From NCBI GenBank assembly GCA_020049335.1, contig JAIFKX010000134.1, positions 1 to 53,775 of the forward strand: a stretch of DNA of 53,775 nt. Direction: 5' to 3'. The position numbers were made by a program, and so were the translations under genes. The notes beneath the pieces are model-generated. The model was not told the DNA's origin, ran no database searches, and saw nothing but the letters and a program-made list of their open reading frames with translations. Below, in pieces: positions 6,075 to 52,070 of the stretch (position 1 is its first letter; every line of letters begins with the position of its first letter). Source of the DNA: Paludibacter sp. Its GTDB lineage: Bacteria > Bacteroidota > Bacteroidia > Bacteroidales > Paludibacteraceae.

Positions 6075-8741
6075 TTAGTTGATGGCTTCCAATGCTTTCG
6101 CAATGGCTTGCTGAATGCCAGCTGCATTTTTACCACCTGCCGAAGCAAAAAATGGTTGTCCGCCACCGCCACCTTGTATTTCTTTGGCAGCTTCGCGAGC
6201 TATATTTACGGCATTTAATCCACCGGCAACTAAATCGTCGCTTATCAATACGGTGATGGATGGTTTACCATCGGCCACACAACCTGCTACAAAGAAAAGT
6301 TTTTCAGGATGAATGTTACGCAATTGAAAAGCAAGCGTTTTTACTTGTTCAGCTTGTAAACTGCCTTCAAATCTGACCACTTTTATACCATTTATTTCTG
6401 AAGCCTCAGCGTGCAATTTATCGCGCAATGCCATAATTTGAACCTGCTGAAATACCTCAACTTTTTTCTTTAAATCTACATTTTCTTCGGTTATTTTTCG
6501 GAGTGATGCAATCAAATCGGGTGCATTGTTTAAAAGCTCTTTGGCTTCGCCAATGGTATCTTGTTGTTTGTCAAGCAATTCTTCTACGGCTTTTCCTGTA
6601 ATGGCTTCAATACGTCGAATGCCCGCTGCAATGGAGCTTTCGGCAGTAATACGAACCAATCCGATATTTCCGGTAGCGCTCACGTGTGTTCCACCGCAAA
6701 GTTCCACTGAACTTCCAAATTGAATAACACGAACTGTTTCGCCGTATTTTTCGCCAAACAAAGCCATTGCTCCCAAAGCTTGGGCTTCAGCAATTGGAGT
6801 ATCGCGTTTTTCGACCAGCTGATAGTTTTCGCGAATTTTGCGGTTAGCAATAGCTTCTACAGATCGAATCTCTTCTTTGCTCAATTTTTGGAAATGCGAA
6901 AAGTCGAAACGCAATGCTTCGGGGCTTACGAACGAACCTTTTTGTTCCACATGCGTGCCCAATACTTCGCGCAATGCTTCGTGAAGCAAGTGCGTAGCCG
7001 AGTGATTACATTCAGTTGCTTTGCGTTTATCAATGTCGATTGTTGCCGTAAATGTTTCGGTTACATCTTCTGGCAATTTGTTTACAATATGTACTGCGAG
7101 GTTATTTTCCTTTTTTGTGTCAATAATTTCAACAATTCCATGTTCTGATGTTAACGTGCCGCTATCTCCAACTTGTCCGCCCATTTCGGCATAAAAAGGA
7201 GTTTTTGAAAGTACCAATTGATAATACTCCTGATTTTTTTGTTTTACTTTGCGATAACGCAAAATTTCGGTATCAGCTTCCATAAAATCATACCCCACAA
7301 AAACGCTTTCACCTTCGCGAACTGTTACCCAGTCGCCAGTTTCGGTAGCAGCAGCATTGCGCGCTCGCTCTTTTTGTTTCTGCATTTCGGAGTTAAACTC
7401 TTCAATATCAACAGTCATGTTGTTTTCGCGCAGAATTAATTCAGTCAAATCAAGCGGAAAACCAAAAGTATCATACAGCGTAAAAGCTACTTTGCCGCTT
7501 AAAACATTAGAAATTTGTGAGACAGCTGAACTTTGTGTTGCGCTCGTTCCCCTCTCCCCAGGGAGAGGGGTTAGGGGTGAGGTGGGGATGTATTTGTCCA
7601 ACAACTTAATCCCCGTTTCCAATGTACGCAAAAACGATTCTTCTTCCTCTTTGATTACTTTTTCAATCAACGTTTTTTGCGAAATAAGTTCTGGATAAGC
7701 TTTACCCATTACATCGCCCAACGAATTTATCAATTTGTACATAAATGCTGAACGTTGCCCAAGGAAAGTATAACCGTAACGCACAGCACGACGCAAAATA
7801 CGACGAATTACATATCCGGCTTTAGCATTCGAAGGCAATTGACCGTCAGTAATCGAAAATGAAATAGTACGGATATGGTCGGCAATAACGCGCATGGCGA
7901 TATCGGTTTTCTCGTTTTTACCATATTCTGCACCGCAAACTTTGCCAATTTCGGCTATAATAGGTGTGAAAACATCCGTGTCGTAATTTGATTGAACACC
8001 TTGAATCGCCATACACAAACGTTCGAAGCCCATACCAGTATCAATTACTTTAGCAGGTAGTCCTTCGAGCGAGCCATCGGCTTTGCGGTTGTATTGCATA
8101 AATACGTTGTTCCAAATTTCGATAACCTGCGGGTGACTTTCGTTGACGAGCGTAAGTCCATCGACCAAAGCACGTTCGCTATTGGGGCGAATATCGATAT
8201 GAATTTCAGAACAGGGGCCACAAGGACCTGTATCACCCATTTCCCAGAAATTATCTTTTTTATTTCCGTTAATAATACGGTCTTTTGGTAAAAATTGTTC
8301 CCAAATAGCAGCAGCTTCATCATCACGGTCTAAACCTTCGGGTGCATAGCCTTCGAAAACGGTAACGTACAAACGGTCTTTGTCGAGTTTCAATATTTCA
8401 GTGAGGTACTCCCAAGCCCATTCGATAGCTTCTTTTTTGAAATAATCGCCAAACGACCAGTTTCCCAACATTTCGAACATGGTGTGATGATAAGTATCGT
8501 GTCCAACCTCTTCCAAATCGTTGTGCTTACCGCTCACACGCAAGCATTTTTGCGAATCGGCCACGCGCGCATATTTAATAGGGTCGTTACCCAAAATTAT
8601 ATTTTTGAACTGATTCATTCCGGCATTGGTAAACATCAAAGTTGGATCATCTTTGATAACCATGGGTGCTGATGGAACGATTTTGTGGTCTTTCGATGCG
8701 AAAAAATCGAGAAATGATTGACGAATTTCCTGTGAAGTCAT
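6075..8741 (-). CDS. alaS: Alanyl-tRNA synthetase
   Basis: 888 residues. The N-terminal class II catalytic domain starts [26 protein letters not shown], followed by [11 protein letters not shown] and [15 protein letters not shown]. The editing domain carries zinc motifs [13 protein letters not shown] and CGGTHV, and the C-terminal oligomerisation/DHHA1 domain ends [16 protein letters not shown]. An upstream in-frame ATG (8822) would add 27 residues encoded by a tandem repeat array, so ATG 8741 is chosen. Residues about 384-399 ([10 protein letters not shown]) are encoded by a C-rich palindromic repeat inserted in frame in a loop before [13 protein letters not shown]. Transcription from the -7 box at 9288-9295 would give a ~540-nt leader full of small hairpins. 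Confidence 0.97.
7546..7593 (-). repeat. C-rich palindromic repeat inserted in frame in alaS
   Basis: CCCCTCTCCCCAGGGAGAGG (core hairpin, plus strand) followed by GGTTAGGGGTGAGGTGGGG. On the coding strand it reads as CACCTCACCCCTAACCCC plus an 8-bp palindrome. The same pattern occurs in queA, the Smr gene and the type IIG gene, and between genes at 33439 and 52032. Confidence 0.85.
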
Positions 8742-8749
8742 ATTTTTTG

Positions 8750-9092
8750 TGTTATTTTTACTTTTACTTCGTGTTATTTGTGCTTCGCACGTTATTAGCT
8801 TCGCGTTATTTGTGCTTCGCACGTTATTAGCTTTGCGTTATTTGTGCTTCGCACGTTATTAGCTTTGCGTTATTTGTGCTTTGCACGTTATTGGCTTCGC
8901 GTTATTTGTGCTTCGCACGTTATTAGTTTTGCGTTATTTGTGCTTTGCACGTTATTAGCTTTGCGTTATTTGTGCTTTGCACGTTATTAGCTTTGCGTTA
9001 TTTGTGCTTCGCACGTTATTAGTTTCGCGTTATTTGTGCTTCGCACGTTATTAGTTTCGCGTTATTTGTGCTTCGCACGTTATTTTAATTAC
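8750..9092 (-). repeat. AAATAAC / mini-hairpin array, ten 32-bp units
   Basis: Ten direct units with a period of exactly 32 bp run from 8773 to 9092. On the minus strand each reads AATAAC-[GTGC GAA GCAC]-AAATAAC-[GC GAA GC]-. Loops alternate between GAA and AAA. Every bracket is a tiny hairpin with a 3-nt loop; the spacers are constant. It lies directly upstream of alaS in the sense orientation. No gene is present. Confidence 0.9.
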
Positions 9093-9102
9093 GCCCACAG
9101 GG

Positions 9103-9256
9103 GAAATAACTATTTAATAACCATTTAATAACCATTTAATAACTATTTAATAACTATTTAATAACAATAAATAACAGCGCAGCTAAATAACGCCCCTCGG
9201 GCAAATAACAATAAATAACAGCGCAGCTAAATAACGCCCATCGGGCAAATAACTAT
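9103..9256 (+). repeat. AAATAAC / mini-hairpin array, opposite orientation
   Basis: On the plus strand AATAACTATTT/AATAACCATTT units are followed by AAATAAC spacers with brackets [AGC GCA GCT], [GCCC CTC GGGC], [AGC GCA GCT] and [GCCC ATC GGGC]. Stems differ from the adjacent array but keep a 3-4 bp stem and 3-nt loop. The orientation is inverted relative to the array at 8750-9092. Confidence 0.85.
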
Positions 9257-9436: not shown

Positions 9437-10408
9437 ATGGCAAAAAAAATAAAGTTTCATTTCAATCCCGAAACACTGAATTATGAACCAATCATTCAGT
9501 CACTTGCTATTAAAGTAAGGCGTGTGGTTATTCACTTGTTTTCGGGGATTTCGTTGGGTGCGCTTTTCTTTTTTGTATTTGTATCCACTTTCGATTCGCC
9601 CGAAGAGAAACAGCTTGGGTTGGAAAAGAGTCGTATGCAAGCACAGTATAAAATTTTACAACGCCAGCTGGACGAAGCGCAAGAAGTGATGACCGATTTG
9701 CAACAGCGCGACGATAACCTTTATAGAGTGATTTTTCAGGCTGAACCAATTCCATTCGAAGTGCGTAAGGCTACTATTGCTAACACTGAGTATTATAAAC
9801 AGTTATTGGCAATGACAAATTCTGAAATTGTAGCCACTACAACAAAAAAGATAGACGAAATTCGGAAGCAGATTTATATACAATCTCGCTCGTTCGACGA
9901 TTTGGTAAAGTTAGCCAAAAGCAAAGAAGAGATGCTTGAATGTATTCCATCTATTCAACCTGTAATGAATAAAGATTTGAAGAAAATGGCATCTGGTTAT
10001 GGTTGGCGAATCGATCCTATTTACCGAACTCGCCGCTTTCATGCCGGTATGGATTTCGCTGCTGCCACTGGAACTGACATTTTTGCAACTGGCAATGGAA
10101 CAGTTGTTTCTGCTGGTTGGAAACAGGGTTATGGCAATTGTCTCGAAATAAACCACGGTTTTGGCTATCTTACTTTATACGGACACATGAGCAAAATTAT
10201 TGCTCGTGTTGGTCAAAAAGTGAAACGAGGAGAAGTGATAGGAGAGGTCGGAAATACAGGCAAATCAACGGGACCTCATTTACATTACGAAGTGCATTTG
10301 CGAGGCCAAGTAATGAATCCGCATCATTATTATTTTATGGATTTGTCGCCAGCCGATTATGATAGAATGATACAAATGAGTGATAATTCTGGACAAATGA
10401 TGGACTAA
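9437..10408 (+). CDS. Membrane-anchored M23-family (LytM-type) peptidase
   Basis: 323 residues. A short cytosolic N-terminus, one transmembrane helix (about residues 33-52, VIHLFSGISLGALFFFVFV), a periplasmic coiled coil (about 65-110) and a C-terminal zinc peptidase domain. Zinc and catalytic residues are present: H202 and D206 in FHAGMDFAA, and H281-x-H283 in GPHLHYEVH, so it should be active rather than a degenerate EnvC-like activator. It would cleave peptide crosslinks in peptidoglycan. murI follows on the same strand, a second cell-wall gene; alaS lies upstream in divergent orientation. Confidence 0.9.
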   Translation: MAKKIKFHFNPETLNYEPIIQSLAIKVRRVVIHLFSGISLGALFFFVFVSTFDSPEEKQLGLEKSRMQAQYKILQRQLDEAQEVMTDLQQRDDNLYRVIFQAEPIPFEVRKATIANTEYYKQLLAMTNSEIVATTTKKIDEIRKQIYIQSRSFDDLVKLAKSKEEMLECIPSIQPVMNKDLKKMASGYGWRIDPIYRTRRFHAGMDFAAATGTDIFATGNGTVVSAGWKQGYGNCLEINHGFGYLTLYGHMSKIIARVGQKVKRGEVIGEVGNTGKSTGPHLHYEVHLRGQVMNPHHYYFMDLSPADYDRMIQMSDNSGQMMD

Positions 10409-10416
10409 GCAAAAAC

Positions 10417-10568
10417 TGCCCCCAACCCCTAAAGGGGAGCAAAGAGTAATAGTATTGTTTTTTAATTAATTTACAATCAAATGAATAATAAGGATGAAAA
10501 AACACTTGAAGATACTAACTTCAATTCCCCACAATTTATCCCGATGCAGACGGGAGGGGTAAGGGGCA
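10417..10568 (+). repeat. Terminal-inverted-repeat element overlapping the murI start
   Basis: The left end CTGCCCCCAACCCCTAAAGG matches the left end of the 118-bp elements at 26071 and 34226. The middle (ATTTACAAT, GGAT, ACTAACTTCAATTCCCC) can be aligned by eye to copy 34226 (TTTACATT, GGAT, AGTAACTTCACATCCCC), and the right end AGGGGTAAGGGGCAG to AGGGGCTTGGGGCAG. It is 152 bp, longer because of extra sequence including a CCCG-ATGCAGA-CGGG hairpin at 10540-10554. The murI start codon lies inside it. Confidence 0.6.
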
Positions 10569-26060: not shown

Positions 26061-26070
26061 GAAATATTAT

Positions 26071-26188
26071 TGCCCCAAACCCCTAAAGGGGCTAAAAGAC
26101 TGGTATTCGAAATAATTTACATTAATAATAATTGTTTAGGGTTTTAAAAACGAAGCTAACTACACATCCCATTTAGGGGCTTGGGGCA
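26071..26188 (+). repeat. 118-bp terminal-inverted-repeat element (copy A)
   Basis: Left end TGCCCCAAACCCCTAAAGGG; right end CATTTAGGGGCTTGGGGCA. Outer 21 bp are near-perfect inverted repeats. It aligns without gaps over all 118 positions with the copy at 34226-34343, roughly 80% identical by hand count. No target duplication and no coding capacity seen; a MITE-like element. Confidence 0.85.
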
Positions 26189-26213
26189 TTTTGTTTTTAT
26201 AGTTTATAGCGTT

Positions 26214-28882: not shown

Positions 28883-31800
28883 CTACCCCTCCACAATCTT
28901 AATTTCCTCTTCCGTCAATTCATACAGTGCATACACCATTCGGTCAATTTTGCGGTCAGTATCATCTATTTGTTTTTTTATTTCGAGGGCTTTTGCTTTT
29001 TCCGTATTGAAATAGTCTTCCCATTCGGCTTCCTGAGCGAGGGTGAGTTTTACTTTTTTCTTAGCAAGTTCAGTAATAAACTCTTTGTAGCTTAGTAGAT
29101 ACCAGTTTTGCAGTTTGCCAGGCAACTCTTCCAAATCGAACTTACGCTGAAGCATACGTTGGAATTTTTGAGATGAATCATTTAATGCCTTGTGTAATAT
29201 GAGCATTTCATTGGCTTTAACAGCTAATTCTTCAGTTGTATTTGCAATTGGTATTTGACCAAAATACTTCCAAATTAATTGAACTCCATTTTGTATTTGT
29301 GTGCAGTATTTTGTTATTAGCCACCAACCCATTTTCGAGTTTAATATGGCAAGTAAACCTTTATCTGCAGAGGGAATAATCCACATTGAATTATTACAAA
29401 AAAGTCCTTGCTCATCATAGATAAAACATGGTTTTACCTGAAACACTTGATACATAATTTTAGGACTGTTGAATTTTACCAAATAATCATCTGTTGGGCA
29501 ATTATCTAATTCTAACCAATGATGTTGACCCGAAAATGGCTTCTCGATGCTGGGTTTACTTCCATTGCACTGACCACGCTTTTTTAAATCCACTTCAAAT
29601 GTTTGAAGTCTTTCATATATTGCAGGATAGTCTTTTTCGAGGTGTTGATAACTTCCGTACTTGGCTAAGATAATAAAATCACATTCACTTAATTGAGGAA
29701 TTCCATATCGTTTCATATTTCGTCCTCTTACTATCGGATTAATTATGTTTTCTGAGGAAATATGTTTATGGATCAATTTTATTTTAGTTTCTTCATCAAT
29801 AATATAAGCTTCACTCAAACCTGGGATAATCCCCCTAAAAGCTTCTTCATTAATCACTTCAATCAATTTTGGAAAAGACCTTTTAAGACATTCGATTAAT
29901 TTTTGGTCATTGGACGATGATAATACCCAAGTTTCCGAATTCAGTTTTGATATTTCAAATTTCTCGGCAGAAAGTGTTACGTTCGAGTAAAAATCGTCAG
30001 AATGGATACTTGACAATACTGATACATTTACAACTTTTTTGGGTTGTGCCTTGCGTGAAACAAAAATACAGGGATAAGTCGTTACACCTTCGAAAATCTG
30101 AATATCACCAAAATCAATAAGTTGATTTAGTTCGTATTGAAGGAAAAACTCTCGTAATGATTTTCCATATCCGGCCTGCATCCATTTATTTGGCATGATA
30201 AAAGAGATTATACCGTTCTGTTTTAAAAGATTAAAACCTTTCTCAACAAATAGGCAATATAAATCACCACGTTTTTCGAATGTTTTATAATTCATATTCG
30301 ACATAGCTTCCGATATGTCCTTCATCGTTTCAAGTCTTACATACGGCGGATTCCCAATCACAACATCAAAACCACCTTTCTGTTGTTTTTCATATTTGGC
30401 TTTGGGTGCGGATACAACTTCTAATTTATGGGCATATTCTGCCAATTGTTTGGTTATTTCCAACGCTTCTTTCGATAAGGCAATACCCTGTTCGGCTTTT
30501 AATTGCGCTTCTGCCGATTTTTCTTTAATAAGTTTCAGGTAATCAGGTGTTTCTATCTTTTCGATAGAAATTATTTCAACGGGTTTTTGTTCACGCCCAA
30601 ACACCTGCGGGAATTCGTTGTGCCAGTCGAACGCTTTATCGCCTGCCACAGCAGGGTCGTCAATCAGCGAATTACCGCATTTGATATTATTATTCAACGA
30701 GCTGAGTTTGCGGTGAGGTTTGGCGGTGCGCAGCCACAACGATAGCTTGGCAATTTCAACACTTTCTTCGTTAATATCCACGCCGTAAAGATTGTTTTCC
30801 AAAATGGTGTTTTCGATGTTCGACAGTCCCATGGAGTAATGGTTTTTCAATCCTGTAATTCTCTCCTGCTGGTTGTCAATCCAGCTGTGTTCGGCTATTA
30901 AAAAATCGAGTGCGGTATTCAGGAATGCACCGCTTCCACATGCAGGGTCAACAATTGTGATTTGCAACAGCCATTCACGGTAAGCATCAAACACTTTTAG
31001 TGCTTGTTTCTTTTTATCTTCTTGCTCTTTTTTCGACCTGCTTTTGAATTCGAATAGTTCTTCGCATATACCCAGTTCGGTTTTCTTTTCCTCGCACAAC
31101 CGTCCAACTGTATTTTCAATAATGTACTGAGTAATATAGTGTGGAGTATAAACCACGCCATCTTGTTTACGCTTCGAGACCCCTCCCGACCTCCCCGAAG
31201 GAGGGGAGAATGTACCAGATGTAATTTCATTGGCAATCTGTTCAATTTCGCTCAGACTGTTTTCGAAAATATGACCCAGAATATTTACATCTACATCGGT
31301 ACCATAGTCGTAAACAGCTAATTTGAGTATGTTTTCCGAAAGTATGGTGTCGTCTACTTTGATTTGATTCAGCAACTCATCGTTGGCAAATAAACCGCCA
31401 TTGTAGGCATAAATCTCTGTATTGGCATCTTTATATCCTACATCCAACAGTTTGAAATACTTCACAAACCGACTGTATAACGACTGATAATCGTTCATTG
31501 GGTCGGCATTGAATTTTTTCCATTTTTCAATTGTAGCTTTTACCGAGTTGGCAGGAAGTAGGTCTTTGTCTTCGGCAAAAAGCAGAAACAGAAAGCGGTC
31601 GAGCAGTTTTTGCGTTTTTTTAAACAGGAACAGCTTATCATATTCGGGATTCAACGATACGATACTATCGAAAAGCTGACGTTTAAAAATGGAATAATCC
31701 TTATAGAGTTGCTTTGTAATTACATCTTCGTTGCTTATTGATTGATTTTTAATCTCTTGTGGCAGATTCTTTGCCATACTTTCGTAGGAGAGGCACAACC

Positions 31801-32293
31801 AAAGCCTATGAAATTCATCATACGTAAGATTAAATAAGTCGAACTCTATAAAATCAACGGCATTGTCGATATAAAACCGCAATCGTTCAAAATTGGAGGT
31901 AATAACGTAACGGCAGTTTTTATGATTGTTTTTGTAGCCAAAAGCCTGAACCTCAACCTTCTTTAAATCCTGTGTTTTGTGGTCTTTCAACTCAATTACC
32001 GCTACAATTTGGTTGTTGATACGAATAGCTGCATCGGCACTTTTAGCATCCGTTTCGTTTTTCTTTTCCCTAAGAAGATTGAAATTTGGCTGAGGTTGGG
32101 CAATATAGCCTAATACATTTACGAATAATGCTTCAATAAATTCACCCTGATATTGCTGTTCTATCAGTTCTAATATATTTGCCTGAATGGCAGGATTACC
32201 AAAATAATCGACATATTTTTTGTAAATCGGACTCAGATTGGTGGTTATACCCGCTAAAAACTGACGTTCAACTTGTGTTTGGAATAATGACAT
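28883..32293 (-). CDS. Type IIG restriction-modification enzyme (Eco57I-like, single chain)
   Basis: 1136 residues combining all functions. N-terminal nuclease of the PD-(D/E)xK type: D87 in SADAAIRI and E101-x-K103 in VAVIELKD. Central N6-adenine methyltransferase: QDGVVYTPHYITQYIIE, motif I VDPACGSGAFLNTALDFL (near residue 450), LYGVDINEESVEIAKLSLWLRT, and catalytic GFDVVIGNPPYVRLE (near 648). The C-terminal ~400 residues look like a TaqI-C/Eco57I target-recognition region with SEAYIIDEETK and MIWPSADKGLLAILNS-like blocks. Residues about 361-373 (SPPSGRSGGVS) come from a C-rich palindromic repeat inserted in frame just before the methyltransferase domain. Apparently intact; a broken gene lies at its 3' end. 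Confidence 0.88.
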   Translation of the reverse strand: MSLFQTQVERQFLAGITTNLSPIYKKYVDYFGNPAIQANILELIEQQYQGEFIEALFVNVLGYIAQPQPNFNLLREKKNETDAKSADAAIRINNQIVAVIELKDHKTQDLKKVEVQAFGYKNNHKNCRYVITSNFERLRFYIDNAVDFIEFDLFNLTYDEFHRLWLCLSYESMAKNLPQEIKNQSISNEDVITKQLYKDYSIFKRQLFDSIVSLNPEYDKLFLFKKTQKLLDRFLFLLFAEDKDLLPANSVKATIEKWKKFNADPMNDYQSLYSRFVKYFKLLDVGYKDANTEIYAYNGGLFANDELLNQIKVDDTILSENILKLAVYDYGTDVDVNILGHIFENSLSEIEQIANEITSGTFSPPSGRSGGVSKRKQDGVVYTPHYITQYIIENTVGRLCEEKKTELGICEELFEFKSRSKKEQEDKKKQALKVFDAYREWLLQITIVDPACGSGAFLNTALDFLIAEHSWIDNQQERITGLKNHYSMGLSNIENTILENNLYGVDINEESVEIAKLSLWLRTAKPHRKLSSLNNNIKCGNSLIDDPAVAGDKAFDWHNEFPQVFGREQKPVEIISIEKIETPDYLKLIKEKSAEAQLKAEQGIALSKEALEITKQLAEYAHKLEVVSAPKAKYEKQQKGGFDVVIGNPPYVRLETMKDISEAMSNMNYKTFEKRGDLYCLFVEKGFNLLKQNGIISFIMPNKWMQAGYGKSLREFFLQYELNQLIDFGDIQIFEGVTTYPCIFVSRKAQPKKVVNVSVLSSIHSDDFYSNVTLSAEKFEISKLNSETWVLSSSNDQKLIECLKRSFPKLIEVINEEAFRGIIPGLSEAYIIDEETKIKLIHKHISSENIINPIVRGRNMKRYGIPQLSECDFIILAKYGSYQHLEKDYPAIYERLQTFEVDLKKRGQCNGSKPSIEKPFSGQHHWLELDNCPTDDYLVKFNSPKIMYQVFQVKPCFIYDEQGLFCNNSMWIIPSADKGLLAILNSKMGWWLITKYCTQIQNGVQLIWKYFGQIPIANTTEELAVKANEMLILHKALNDSSQKFQRMLQRKFDLEELPGKLQNWYLLSYKEFITELAKKKVKLTLAQEAEWEDYFNTEKAKALEIKKQIDDTDRKIDRMVYALYELTEEEIKIVEG
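31175..31212 (-). repeat. C-rich palindromic repeat inserted in frame in the type IIG gene
   Basis: ACCCCTCCCGACCTCCCCGA (from 31179) followed by AGGAGGGGAGAATG. The core CTCCCC-GAAG-GGAG palindrome and flanking CCCCTCCC match the repeat family found in alaS, queA and the Smr gene. Confidence 0.75.
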
Positions 32294-33332: not shown

Positions 33333-33522
33333 TGTTCTAAAATTTTAAATCTCAACACATTATATTTGATTGGCTAAAGCCCTTATTCTAAGTAAGTAGA
33401 ATAAAATAATGTCGCATAACTTTATTAGTTGCAGACCGCAATTCCCTCTCCTCAAGGAGATTGTTAGGGTGAGGTAAATATTTTATAATGGTGTGTTAAA
33501 TTTGTCCATTAACTTATATGCA
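33333..33522. repeat. Intergenic repeats between cobB and rnhB
   Basis: TTGGCTAAAGCCCTTATTCT (near 33370) matches the repeat beyond the other end of cobB. A C-rich palindromic repeat, CCCTCTCCTCAAGGAG, followed by TTAGGGTGAGGT lies at about 33443-33475. No gene. Confidence 0.7.
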
Positions 33523-34161: not shown

Positions 34162-34225
34162 GTTTAGTTTATAGTATTAAAGATGTAGAAATTTCAATAT
34201 GAAAATAAAGAAACAAATCTAATAC

Positions 34226-34343
34226 TGCCCCAAACCCCTAAAGGGGCTTAAAGAGTGGTGTTTGAAGTGTTTTACATTAAAATTAAATGATTCGGATTTA
34301 AGAGACGTAAGTAACTTCACATCCCCTTTAGGGGCTTGGGGCA
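34226..34343 (+). repeat. 118-bp terminal-inverted-repeat element (copy B)
   Basis: TGCCCCAAACCCCTAAAGGG at the left and CTTTAGGGGCTTGGGGCA at the right. Same length as copy A (26071-26188), alignable without gaps. It lies between rnhB and cvpA; its right end, followed by eight T, could also act as a terminator on the plus strand. Confidence 0.85.
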
Positions 34344-34360
34344 GTTTTTTTTCGCGCTAA

Positions 34361-34861
34361 TTAAACCTCTTTTTCAGTTTTTATTTCTTTTACTTCTTCC
34401 CAAAGTTGGGGTGCTAGCCCAAGCATGGGTTTATAGAGTATGGAGTCGGTTTTTGTTTGGGCATTAAGTATGCTAATTTTCGAATCTAAAACATCAAATA
34501 CGTTTAGCAATAAGCTGATTATCAAGGCGTATTTTAATGCGCCAAATATACCACCAAAAATTTTATTTAATCCGCCAAGCGAAATATTTTCTACTAATTT
34601 ATCTAACGAGCGGGCTAGAAACATCATTAATAAAGCAATGGCAATAAAAATAATAACGAACGAAAGTGGCACAGCTACAGTTTTCGACACCCCAAAAACA
34701 TCGGTAAGAATTGAACTCATAATGGGTGAAAACCATTTGGAACCGTAAATGCCTACAATAATGACTGCCAGCGAAATAATTTCGCGGATTAACCCTTTGG
34801 ATAAACCAAAAACAAATCCCAATAACAATGGGATTAAAATAATAATATCAATTGTATTCAT
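34361..34861 (-). CDS. CvpA-family membrane protein
   Basis: 166 residues, four membrane helices, beginning MNTIDIIILIPLLLGFVFGLSKGLIREIISLAVIIVGIYGSKWF, the CvpA pattern, and including SLGGLNKIFGGIFGALKYALIISLLLNVF. CvpA was named for colicin V production; its general role is linked to envelope homeostasis and remains unclear. ATG 34861 is chosen over ATG 34906 because a promoter box (34882-34889) lies between the two. Confidence 0.88.
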   Translation of the reverse strand: MNTIDIIILIPLLLGFVFGLSKGLIREIISLAVIIVGIYGSKWFSPIMSSILTDVFGVSKTVAVPLSFVIIFIAIALLMMFLARSLDKLVENISLGGLNKIFGGIFGALKYALIISLLLNVFDVLDSKISILNAQTKTDSILYKPMLGLAPQLWEEVKEIKTEKEV

Positions 34862-45492: not shown

Positions 45493-46587
45493 TTATTTTA
45501 TAGTAACCATTGTGGCTCCAAAACCATATTCGCGGAACGAAGCATCCTGAAAATAGTAGGTTTTATAACGTGTGCGGAGTTGTTTTTCGATTTCGGAACG
45601 CAATACGCCTTCACCTTTGCCGTGAATGAAAACGATTTTCTGTCCTTTGTGGGTTTTATTCTCGTCAATTATTTTGTGAAAAGTGTCTATTTGCAACAAT
45701 AGCATATCAGCATTGCTCATGCCAGCAGTTGTATCTACCAATTCGTTGATATGCAAATCAATTTCCAACACATCGGGGCGTTGTGGAGCCACTTTTTTCA
45801 CAATGCGTGGACGCTGTGGTTGCTCTTTGGTGAAAAGTGCTTGCTTAATTTCGTCGGGCGAAACCGCTGCTAATTTGCTTTTTTGTTGTGACTCCAAAAT
45901 GTCAATAATCATAGCTGGTTCTTCAAAATACTCGTTGTCGGTAAAACTATGCAGTTTGAAAAAGCGAATAACATTCAACTTTATTTCGGCATCAATTAAA
46001 GGTTGTGGCGTATAGGCTTTTTGCTTAAAAGGCAACAATTGCACGCGAATTTCTTCCCAATTATTGAGTTGATCTTTGGTAATGGAACATAATTCTTCTT
46101 GCGTATTTGGCTCAATTAGTCCGTTAGCAGCCGCTTTCCAATTGCCTTCGTTGCAAATTATCAGGTTATAGTACAAAAAATAATTGCTGTCGTTTACCAA
46201 ATAGCAATCGTAAGATGTTGTTTGCAATTGCTTAATTTCAACTGGAAAAAATGCTAATACGGCGCGGAGAATGTCGCCTTCTTTAGTTTCTATCACCTCA
46301 CCCCAGCCCTCTCCTTGAGCAGAGGGAGACGTGCGTATCGAATTAGATTCTGATTTTGGAAGGGCATTTTGAGAAGAAGAATTATTATTCGAAGTTGAAA
46401 GAATTTCTTTTCGCGGAAAGTTAGTTTCTTTACTTACTGCCCCAATCACCACACAATCGCGTATCATAGTTGGAATTTCGAAGCCATCTTCATCTTCCAC
46501 ATAAACCATATTATTTTTATCGTCGACGCGTGTAATGGTTCCACCACCCACTGCATTCAAAAATCGTACTGTATCACCTGTTTTCAT
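45493..46587 (-). CDS. DUF2027-Smr domain protein
   Basis: 364 residues. N-terminal DUF2027 domain (MKTGDTVRFLNAVGGGTITRVDDKNNMVYVEDEDGFEIP), central DUF2027/beta region (VEIKQLQTTSYDCYLVNDSNYFLYYNLII), and a C-terminal Smr domain (LEIDLHINELVD, KIVFIHGKGEGVLRSEIEKQL) as in MutS2. Smr domains nick DNA or RNA; without the MutS ATPase its role is unclear. Residues about 87-100 (TSPSAQGEGWGEV) are encoded by a C-rich palindromic repeat in a linker. A GACRACR heptamer array lies directly before the start codon. Confidence 0.85.
   Translation of the reverse strand: MKTGDTVRFLNAVGGGTITRVDDKNNMVYVEDEDGFEIPTMIRDCVVIGAVSKETNFPRKEILSTSNNNSSSQNALPKSESNSIRTSPSAQGEGWGEVIETKEGDILRAVLAFFPVEIKQLQTTSYDCYLVNDSNYFLYYNLIICNEGNWKAAANGLIEPNTQEELCSITKDQLNNWEEIRVQLLPFKQKAYTPQPLIDAEIKLNVIRFFKLHSFTDNEYFEEPAMIIDILESQQKSKLAAVSPDEIKQALFTKEQPQRPRIVKKVAPQRPDVLEIDLHINELVDTTAGMSNADMLLLQIDTFHKIIDENKTHKGQKIVFIHGKGEGVLRSEIEKQLRTRYKTYYFQDASFREYGFGATMVTIK
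46290..46330 (-). repeat. C-rich palindromic repeat inserted in frame in the Smr gene
   Basis: CACCTCACCCCAGCCCTCTC (from 46294) then CTTGAGCAGAGGGAG; the core is an imperfect CTCTCC/GAGGGAG palindrome. Same family as in alaS and queA, read here from the opposite strand. Confidence 0.8.
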
Positions 46588-46669: not shown

Positions 46670-47908
46670 GTGCCAACTACTAACGAATCAACTCCCATTT
46701 ATATCGACGAGTATAATTACACCTTGCCCGACGAGCGTATTGCCAAATATCCTTTAATAAAAAGGGATTCATCAAAATTATTAGTTTATAAAAATGGGAA
46801 AATCAGCGAAAGTAAATTTTCATCGGTTGCTGAATATTTACCCGAAAATGCCTTATTGGTCTACAACAACACCCGTGTAATTCAGGCACGGTTGGAATTT
46901 CATAAATCGACTGGTGCGCGCATAGAAGTGTTTTGTTTAGAGCCACTTACGCCTGCTGACTACGCACAATCACTTGGCGCTACCACCGAATGTGTGTGGA
47001 AATGCATGGTTGGGAATTTAAAAAAGTGGAAAGATGAAGTCCTTTCAAAAGTGGTGAAAATGACAGGGAAATCAACTGTTTTTACTGCCGAATTGCTTCA
47101 AACCGAAGGAAATACTCATAGTGTAAAATTTAGTTGGGATAATGCCGACATTCATTTTGCCGATATTTTGGAAAATGCTGGAGAACTTCCTATTCCACCT
47201 TATTTACACCGCAAAACCGAACAAAGTGATTTAACAAGTTATCAAACTGTTTATTCCAAAATTAATGGTTCGGTAGCTGCGCCAACTGCTGGTTTGCATT
47301 TTACACCCGAAGTTTTCGAAAGTTTAAAGTTAAAAAATATTGAAATCGACGAAGTAACACTTCATGTAGGAGCAGGCACTTTTCAGCCTGTAAAAACCCG
47401 CGATATTGCTGAACATCACATGCATACCGAAGTTATTTCGGTAAAGCGGGATACCATTGTAAATATTCAAAAAAATCTTGGAAATATTATTGCTGTGGGC
47501 ACTACTTCGGTGCGCACGTTGGAGAGTTTGTATTATATTGGTTCAAACCTCACCCCTAGCCCCTCTCCTTCGGGAGAGGGGAATAAGATCTTTCGGGTAA
47601 GTCAATGGGATCCTTATCAGCAAGATTTTAATATCTCGGCTTTCGATGCGTTACAAAATATCTTGGACTATTTGGATGCCAATAAGTTGGATGTGCTACA
47701 TGCCGAAACGCAAATCCTGATTAAGCCGGGCTACCAGTTTCTCATTGTAAACGGTATGATTACTAACTTTCACCAACCTAAAAGTACTTTACTGCTTCTT
47801 GTTTCGGCTTTTGTAAAAGGCAACTGGAAATCGATTTACGACTACGCACTGGCAAACGATTTTCGCTTCTTGAGCTATGGCGATAGCAGTTTGTTGTTGA
47901 ATGATTGA
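46670..47908 (+). CDS. queA: S-adenosylmethionine:tRNA ribosyltransferase-isomerase
   Basis: 412 residues from a GTG start. QueA transfers the ribosyl part of SAM to preQ1 in tRNA, giving epoxyqueuosine. Motifs: YNYTLPDERIAKYPLIKRDSSKLLVY, VYNNTRVIQARL, GELPIPPYL, YQTVYSKINGSVAAPTAGLHFTPEVF, DEVTLHVGAGTFQPVKT and HAETQILIKPGYQFLIVNGMITNFHQPKSTLLLLVSAF. The only in-frame ATG (46535) lies beyond the promoter and would add 45 non-family residues. Residues about 293-305 (LTPSPSPSGEG) come from a C-rich palindromic repeat in a loop before SQWDPYQ. queG lies 1.3 kb downstream, same strand. Confidence 0.9.
   Translation: MPTTNESTPIYIDEYNYTLPDERIAKYPLIKRDSSKLLVYKNGKISESKFSSVAEYLPENALLVYNNTRVIQARLEFHKSTGARIEVFCLEPLTPADYAQSLGATTECVWKCMVGNLKKWKDEVLSKVVKMTGKSTVFTAELLQTEGNTHSVKFSWDNADIHFADILENAGELPIPPYLHRKTEQSDLTSYQTVYSKINGSVAAPTAGLHFTPEVFESLKLKNIEIDEVTLHVGAGTFQPVKTRDIAEHHMHTEVISVKRDTIVNIQKNLGNIIAVGTTSVRTLESLYYIGSNLTPSPSPSGEGNKIFRVSQWDPYQQDFNISAFDALQNILDYLDANKLDVLHAETQILIKPGYQFLIVNGMITNFHQPKSTLLLLVSAFVKGNWKSIYDYALANDFRFLSYGDSSLLLND
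47547..47582 (+). repeat. C-rich palindromic repeat inserted in frame in queA
   Basis: CCTCACCCCTAGCCCCTCTC (from 47549) then CTTCGGGAGAGGGG; the core CCCCTCTCC-TTC-GGGAGAGGGG is a near-perfect hairpin. Best preserved member of the family in this window. Confidence 0.9.
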
Positions 47909-52031: not shown

Positions 52032-52070
52032 GACGCCCTCTCCTCAAGGATTGGGGCTGAAAGTGAGGTG
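52032..52070. repeat. C-rich palindromic repeat, intergenic
   Basis: GCCCTCTCCTCAAGGATTGG then GGCTGAAAGTGAGGTG: a diverged member of the repeat family inserted in alaS and queA, just after the ispG stop codon. Confidence 0.65.

Follow-up and report, generated by a model that had tools for sequence, protein, structure and literature searches.

DUF559 endonuclease genes between inverted triplex-type palindromes, and in-frame copies of such palindromes in bacterial enzymes

The 53,775-nucleotide contig JAIFKX010000134.1 of Paludibacter sp. (assembly GCA_020049335.1), referred to here as the window, carries C-rich palindromes that lie in frame, at linkers, inside genes for conserved enzymes, among them alaS and queA. 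Judged by its sequence, the palindrome of alaS and queA is a G/C-rich intrastrand-triplex motif (PIT/TMECO), an already described class; it is not a repetitive extragenic palindrome (REP) and probably not a Rickettsia palindromic element (RPE). The motif is spread over many phyla, and the enzyme that accompanies it is a DUF559 endonuclease, whose gene lies between inverted palindromes and in places is itself nested in frame in host enzymes in which no splicing domain was recognised. An earlier, sequence-only reading of the window had overlooked the motif class. The in-frame palindromes probably represent ends, solo or non-autonomous, of a nuclease element that is homing-like but does not splice; mobility, nuclease action, cutting, copying and directionality are what we infer from this arrangement.

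The first sign of the association was an in-frame DUF559 domain near the palindrome in three of nine proteins scanned with Pfam (MetH, leucyl-tRNA synthetase [LeuRS] and a DegT aminotransferase). Of 22 chosen genomes, 21 had DUF559 (PF04480), as did 37 of 60 relatives; the two sets overlap, and a few of the matches were weak or partial. The DUF559 set comprised 119 domains from 116 loci (118 distinct), of which 114 were testable for flanks, with one domain counted twice (L456/L506) and another partly so (L388/L443). The same GC-rich 13-mer was found inverted, within 300 bp on both sides, in 49/114 DUF559 domains compared with 2/560 random windows (P = 5e-40), half of whose sources had been picked for holding the motif, a choice that disfavours the reading preferred here; the corresponding number for Y1_Tnp domains was 12/55 (P = 0.01). 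The three-block motif described below occupied both flanks of 34/114 DUF559 domains and one flank of 31/114, compared with both flanks in 1/560 and one flank in 44/560 random windows. Among the 34 double-flanked domains, the palindromes pointed outward only (CCTCACC-like block outermost) in 17, inward only in 2, and were mixed or oriented the same way in 15. The outer ends of 17 nested CCTCACC-type cassettes were 488 to 959 bp apart, with A as the outer base before the cassette in 15/17 and T after it in 14/17; their lengths modulo 3 were mixed (2 in 11, 1 in 5, 0 in 1), so that the ends of the insert are approximate. Other DUF559 lineages had different C-rich palindromes at both ends.

Residues D42, E53, D55, G56 and H59 of DUF559 were conserved in 98-100% of 115 domains, and a solved relative (PDB 3hrl) is an endonuclease-like protein. 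Across the 60 relatives, palindrome and DUF559 counts were correlated (Spearman 0.67, and 0.60 within genus; presence table 27/2/10/21). DUF559 domains were found in 3/50,697 phage records (E 1e-8) and in 35/72,556 plasmid records (E 1e-10), some of which were chromosome-sized; a plasmid from Sphingomonas carried a DUF559 gene between sufB and sufC, with inverted C-rich palindromes on both sides. PADLOC reported nothing for DUF559. Titles and abstract openings of the papers found held no link between DUF559 and these repeats, most of the subscription literature and the full text of most DUF559 papers being outside the scope of that search. A segment holding a transposase and a DUF559 gene is described as a recombination hotspot in another genus (PMC12308824).

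DUF559 cassettes were also found inside host enzymes, 47 of the 119 domains lying in open reading frames (ORFs) of at least 350 aa. Among the 27 nested ORFs that were scanned with Pfam, the hosts were LeuRS (L391, L397, L458, L470, L477, L499 and L501), MetH (L430, L480, L483, L485 and L509), PurL (L495, L504 and L510), isoleucyl- or valyl-tRNA synthetase-like proteins (IleRS or ValRS; L392, L393, L506 and L514), acetyl-CoA synthetase (Acs; L412), type ISP enzymes (L516 and, in the Paludibacter genome itself, L517), DNA methylases (L443 and L491) and a DUF5107-TPR protein (L496), and two ORFs (L388 and L402) had no host domain in Pfam. For the four ORFs searched against NCBIfam, matches above cut-off were leucine--tRNA ligase (L397), metH (L509), PurL (L510) and isoleucine--tRNA ligase (L514). 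No intein or splicing family was found in the 27 nested ORFs with Pfam (E up to 1e-8) or in the four with NCBIfam (E up to 0.01). In the LeuRS of L397, the residues that border the cassette align to 235 and 242 of 1h3n, close to where the editing domain starts.

Clustering among the cassettes followed both host site and palindrome type. A tree of 115 DUF559 domains (105 columns), which has many open forks and in which near-copies favour clustering, required 22 changes for flank type compared with 36.4 with shuffled labels, and 16 for host label compared with 41.4 (0/200 shuffles as low in either case). By host, PurL changed once, MetH twice, IleRS/ValRS three times and LeuRS six times, and 11 unlabelled nested rows were unclustered. 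One IleRS (L506) held two cassettes, of which one grouped with L393 and the other with L514 and L515, and the flanking host residues of those three loci showed the same two sites. Two further nested cases were recorded as side observations: the LeuRS ORF L391, from the high-copy Patescibacteria genome G082, had Ser_hydrolase and DUF559 domains together (residues 253-401 and 451-554), and L457 (genome G006), read by eye, had an in-frame DUF559 inside an apparent UvrA.

The palindrome consists of three blocks, CCTCACCCC-TAA-CCCCTCTCC-loop-GGAGAGGGG, of which block 2 base-pairs with block 3 and is mirrored by block 1 at all positions but one. In alaS, a perfect hairpin CCCCTCTCC-CCAG-GGAGAGGGG, followed by TTAGGGGTGAGG, lies at 7549-7582; a second perfect hairpin lies in queA at 47548-47581, and the Smr/DUF2027 gene holds a diverged copy with its start at 46296. 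The copies in the window and their host genes are as follows, together with the C-rich palindrome of a type IIG-like gene, whose membership of the family is doubtful.

7546..7594, minus strand: triplex-type palindrome, in frame in alaS (peptide of 12 residues)
6075..8741, minus strand: alaS, alanyl-tRNA synthetase, with the palindrome in a linker
47545..47588, plus strand: triplex-type palindrome, in frame in queA (peptide LTPSPSPSGEG)
46679..47908 (start approximate), plus strand: queA, S-adenosylmethionine:tRNA ribosyltransferase-isomerase
46296..46330, minus strand: diverged palindrome copy, in frame in the Smr/DUF2027 gene (TSPSAQGEGWGE)
45493..46587, minus strand: Smr-domain (DUF2027-like) protein
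31179..31209, minus strand: different C-rich palindrome, in frame in a type IIG-like gene (28883-32293) (peptide SPPSGRSGG)
33444..33474, no strand given: decayed intergenic copy
52036..52068, no strand given: decayed intergenic copy

The palindromes of the window exceeded chance expectation: a strict three-block scan returned two places (alaS and queA) compared with none in each of 20 dinucleotide shuffles, and a relaxed scan returned six, shorter motifs included, compared with none in each of 30 shuffles. The three blocks of PIT/TMECO were thus present in the alaS and queA copies under the strict scan and in shorter motifs under the relaxed one, and aligned copies, compared by eye with the published table, agreed with the consensus having a TTA or C-rich second loop (PMC4666352). 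That source describes the motif as TMECO (Holder et al. 2015), earlier named PIT by Hoyne et al., and reports two types of loop, which also occur together as inverted pairs; inverted pairs of both loop types were also present in L023, L024, L026 and L035. The sequence-only reading had placed one repeat in four enzymes, which stands for alaS, queA and Smr as a single family; the palindrome of the type IIG gene is another C-rich palindrome, which neither the strict nor the relaxed three-block scan reported and for which BLAST against DUF559 flanks gave no link. The further intergenic copies it had proposed were found in decayed form, at the two places listed. GGGGTTAGGGGTGAGG could also be read as a G-quadruplex. 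As a separate observation, an array of ~32-bp repeats (TTATTTGTGCTTCGCACGTTATTAGCTTCGCG and variants) lies just 5' of alaS, at 8760-9110.

All four genes carry their insert in frame, as had been claimed, at a linker, where the alignment shows a gap, or directly ahead of the point at which a domain alignment starts. AlaS was matched in 39/40 genomes, and 30 fetched loci, that of the window included, were aligned: the 12-residue peptide sits between LLDK and a 10-residue stretch, where most orthologues have VMADSKAAAKTEIE or similar. At this loop, the sister genome G021 (91% identical) has a decayed relic, and the AlaS of G013 (L106) has an intact palindrome, together with a second inserted stretch elsewhere with palindrome-like peptides; phmmer against solved alanyl-tRNA synthetase structures opened an 18-residue gap at the insert of the window AlaS. 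QueA was matched in 40/40 genomes, and among the 26 aligned sequences LTPxPS-like peptides occupied one loop in the Paludibacter genome of the window (G000), G004, G021, G007 and G018; several further genomes had other C-rich remains in this loop, and G005, G009, G015 and G020 had a short, ordinary one. The Smr copy comes immediately before the first residues matched by 2huh, and the type IIG palindrome immediately before the methylase part. The proposed loop or linker position was thus borne out, but not as a clean insertion, since in alaS and queA the element replaces a loop of variable length.

In the Paludibacter genome (4.3 Mb, 83% complete), copy number was moderate, and not very high as had been extrapolated from the window: the exact hairpin occurred at 23 places compared with none for a reversed control, the core CTCACCCCTAACCCCTCTCC with up to three mismatches gave 38 hits compared with 2, and 31 core copies were counted in 4.3 Mb. 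Of 30 copies with loci (among the 38 hits), nine fell in ORFs of at least 100 aa, of which six were judged genuine and three lay at frame edges or in short frames. Genic depletion was strong (6/30 copies in genes compared with a coding fraction of ~0.81 estimated from the window; binomial P = 9e-13). The encoded peptides had been described as alike; this needed correction, since copies are read through in several stop-free frames, so that selection favours no one peptide and what is preserved is not the peptide as such.

Beyond this genome, the exact 21-mer CCTCACCCCTAACCCCTCTCC occurred in at least 118 stretches of genome contigs from, judged by record titles, at least ten phyla; the titles named Bacteroidota, Chloroflexi, Cyanobacteria, Planctomycetes, Alpha- and Betaproteobacteria, Patescibacteria, Acidobacteria, Myxococcota, Spirochaetes, Desulfobacteraceae and Ignavibacteria. 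Forty genomes picked from these carriers had 2 to 263 copies each, with one control hit in total. Eighty of the stretches were examined as loci, and 53 of their 86 occurrences of the 21-mer lay in ORFs of at least 100 aa, a number inflated in GC-rich genomes because frames were taken from stop to stop. Hosts named by Pfam among four proteins from the Paludibacter genome and six others included LpxB, HsdR, a Glu/Gln-tRNA synthetase, an MgsA/RarA-like ATPase and an Era-like GTPase; the scan of nine proteins mentioned above added RlmN-like and YjeF-like hosts.

When the window was compared with DUF559 flanks by BLAST, the alaS region (7532-7613) matched 14 cassettes (best E 7e-7), the queA copy (47545-47588) seven (best E 1e-4) and the Smr copy (46285-46330) one, weakly (E 7.5e-4). 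The same search marked three further features.

10402..10568, no strand given: palindromes before and inside the N-terminus of a murI-like ORF
26062..26192, no strand given: unit resembling a miniature inverted-repeat transposable element (MITE), with inverted CCCCTTTAGGGG-type palindromes and no nuclease between them
34198..34364, no strand given: second MITE-like unit of the same kind

The stretch 10402-10568 aligned over 168 bp, with 75.6% identity, to the flank of the DUF559 gene G000:C56 in the same genome (E 1.7e-24). The inverted palindromes of the two MITE-like units are ~70-100 bp apart. The unit at 26062-26192 matched another DUF559 gene of this genome (G000:C246) on both flanks; the unit at 34198-34364 matched that gene on one flank and, in the relative G004, a DUF559 gene on both. 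Complete palindrome pairs stand to either side of these nuclease genes, and it is such units, not the ends alone, that the window matches. The CCTCACC family bounds cassettes on both sides in G002, G013, G021, G028 and G057, among others.

In Escherichia coli, a stretch bearing the DUF559 gene ycjD matched 3,365/5,426 genomes; the control genome of this species was unreported for PF04480 in the profile searches, ycjD being DUF559 by the annotation of MG1655. Published motif number 9 of MG1655 (1351204-1351239) lies between fabI and ycjD, and in strain KE47 three such palindromes lie 3' of the DUF559 gene. Because K-12 carries both the repeats and ycjD, the main steps of the mechanism set out next are open to test in E. 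coli.

If the in-frame palindromes are ends of a nuclease element, its autonomous form would be a cassette of ~0.5-1 kb in which a DUF559 (Vsr-like) endonuclease has a palindrome on one side and its inverted counterpart on the other, the CCTCACC-like block usually being outermost. The nuclease would recognise or cut either the palindrome or the target site; repair would then paste in a copy, in a homing-like manner. In essential genes, only insertions that keep the frame in permissive loops would survive, and loss of the nuclease part may leave palindromes behind, as pairs or, as in alaS and queA, singly.

Several points weigh against this reading. Neither flank of 49/114 DUF559 domains carried the three-block motif. 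Palindromes without DUF559 occurred in the relatives G011 and G026 and in G061 (18 copies), and G018, G033 and G040 count as DUF559 carriers only by weak or partial matches. The four DUF559 genes of the Paludibacter genome are flanked by other palindromes, none of the CCTCACC family. What the window's palindrome pairs match are units that themselves lie next to a DUF559 gene, so that simple deletion is not established as their origin. The 105 columns and many open forks of the DUF559 tree count here as well. The check in E. coli K-12 covered one of 23 motif loci, and two E. coli genomes without ycjD at the locus gave no clean empty site because other genes adjoin fabI in both. The evidence is computational throughout, with neither a DNA-level empty site nor a target duplication shown.

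Among the alternatives, triplex motifs might spread by DNA structure alone, through replication stalling, slippage and repair and with no dedicated enzyme, DUF559 merely sharing fragile sites with them. This agrees with the genomes that have copies and no DUF559, and with the E. coli motif, for which PMC4666352 reports a tie to instability and no association with transposons, phages or plasmids; triplex formation by the motif sequence is reported there in vitro, with none detectable in vivo. We consider it unlikely, as it predicts neither the inverted palindromes on both sides of DUF559, nor a palindrome type that tracks nuclease phylogeny, nor nuclease cassettes set in frame at shared sites of their hosts. 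It is very unlikely that DUF559 is a host Vsr-like repair enzyme which the palindromes regulate or serve as substrate, the nested cases being ordinary fusions: the Caulobacter DUF559 protein VsrA has been proposed as a Vsr-like repair enzyme and tied to a cytosine methylase (PMC12907096), a further point against the nuclease element, but fusion would not account for the unrelated hosts, the fixed sites, the inverted ends or the palindrome pairs found elsewhere.

The sequence-only reading had suggested looking for a REP-associated tyrosine transposase (RAYT; TnpA-REP), and movement of the palindromes as REPs in trans by such a Y1 transposase would have in its favour that Y1_Tnp (PF01797) genes are present in most genomes searched (four matches in the Paludibacter genome; 13/14 relatives; 18/20 high-copy genomes) and that some have inverted palindromes of their own (the 12/55 noted above). 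It is slightly less probable even than a repair enzyme, and RAYT was rejected as the linked enzyme: a full palindrome copy lay within ~1.5 kb on one side of 4 of 104 Y1_Tnp loci (L117, L303, L337 and L354) and on both sides of none, the three-block motif occupied both flanks of 0/55 and one flank of 1/55 in the test shared with DUF559, and G021, G092 and G097 have palindrome copies and no Y1_Tnp match. No GTAG/CGTC tag stood beside the stem in aligned copies, whose ends are ACCTCACC and, on the opposite side, GACAAGA...TGCAA. As an observation on Y1_Tnp itself, several Bacteroidota genes of this RAYT-like kind (L001, L003, L004 and L110-L139) are flanked on both sides by other palindromes, e.g., GGTGCGCTGCACC, GGCTAAAGCC and CCCCTACGGGG. 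Least credible of all is that the peptides are ancestral or low-complexity loops and not insertions. Loop length in alaS and queA does vary among relatives, but in many phyla the same DNA motif lies between genes as well as inside unrelated ones, and the reversed control was near zero; this objection, which the sequence-only reading had raised against itself, also failed in the alignments, where most orthologues lacked the inserted residues and similar residues occurred only in same-genus genomes with decayed or other copies.

The nuclease element thus remains the probable source of the in-frame palindromes. The wider proposition, for which we see about an even chance, is that DUF559 and triplex palindromes make up a mobile DNA class widespread across phyla, intein-like but non-splicing, which homes in frame to linkers of essential enzymes, seeds genomes with solo palindromes that end up as peptide insertions, and is the source of PIT/TMECO in E. 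coli. The triplex-motif class is intragenic in other bacteria; peptides of the 11-residue type in aminoacyl-tRNA synthetases, LpxB and an Era-like GTPase may be read as scars of a DNA element, and translation of the nuclease as a loop of the host protein suggests a route by which selfish DNA could occupy essential genes without splicing.

Compared with known systems, the palindromes share with PIT/TMECO the three-block sequence CCCTCTCCC-loop-GGGAGAGGG-TTA/CCG-GGGTGAGGG, the two loop types, the inverted pairs and the occurrence in many genomes. They differ in that the E. coli motif is reported as unlinked to mobile elements and, in MG1655, as always intergenic (PMC4666352), whereas here the motif is also found in frame in enzymes and flanking DUF559 cassettes. 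REPs and bacterial interspersed mosaic elements (BIMEs) with RAYT are likewise short palindromes that form dimers and have in-frame copies in conserved genes, and GTAG/CGTC REPs are reported inside genes by Di Nocera et al. 2013 (PMC3733652); here, however, there is no GTAG/CGTC terminus and no adjoining RAYT, and a third mirror block and DUF559 are present instead. The likening to RPEs in the sequence-only reading, which itself took the sequences to be unrelated, was a fair one as to behaviour, namely in-frame insertion into loops of conserved proteins, whereas the present palindrome is linked to a nuclease gene. The cassettes are like inteins and homing endonuclease genes in that conserved enzymes carry a nuclease domain nested at fixed positions, with relatives following the site, but here no splicing domain was found, inverted triplex palindromes form the bounds, and solo palindromes occur elsewhere. 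The units with terminal inverted palindromes and no enzyme resemble MITEs, being similar to sequences that adjoin an enzyme gene of the same genome, except that the associated enzyme is a DUF559 nuclease and not a transposase.

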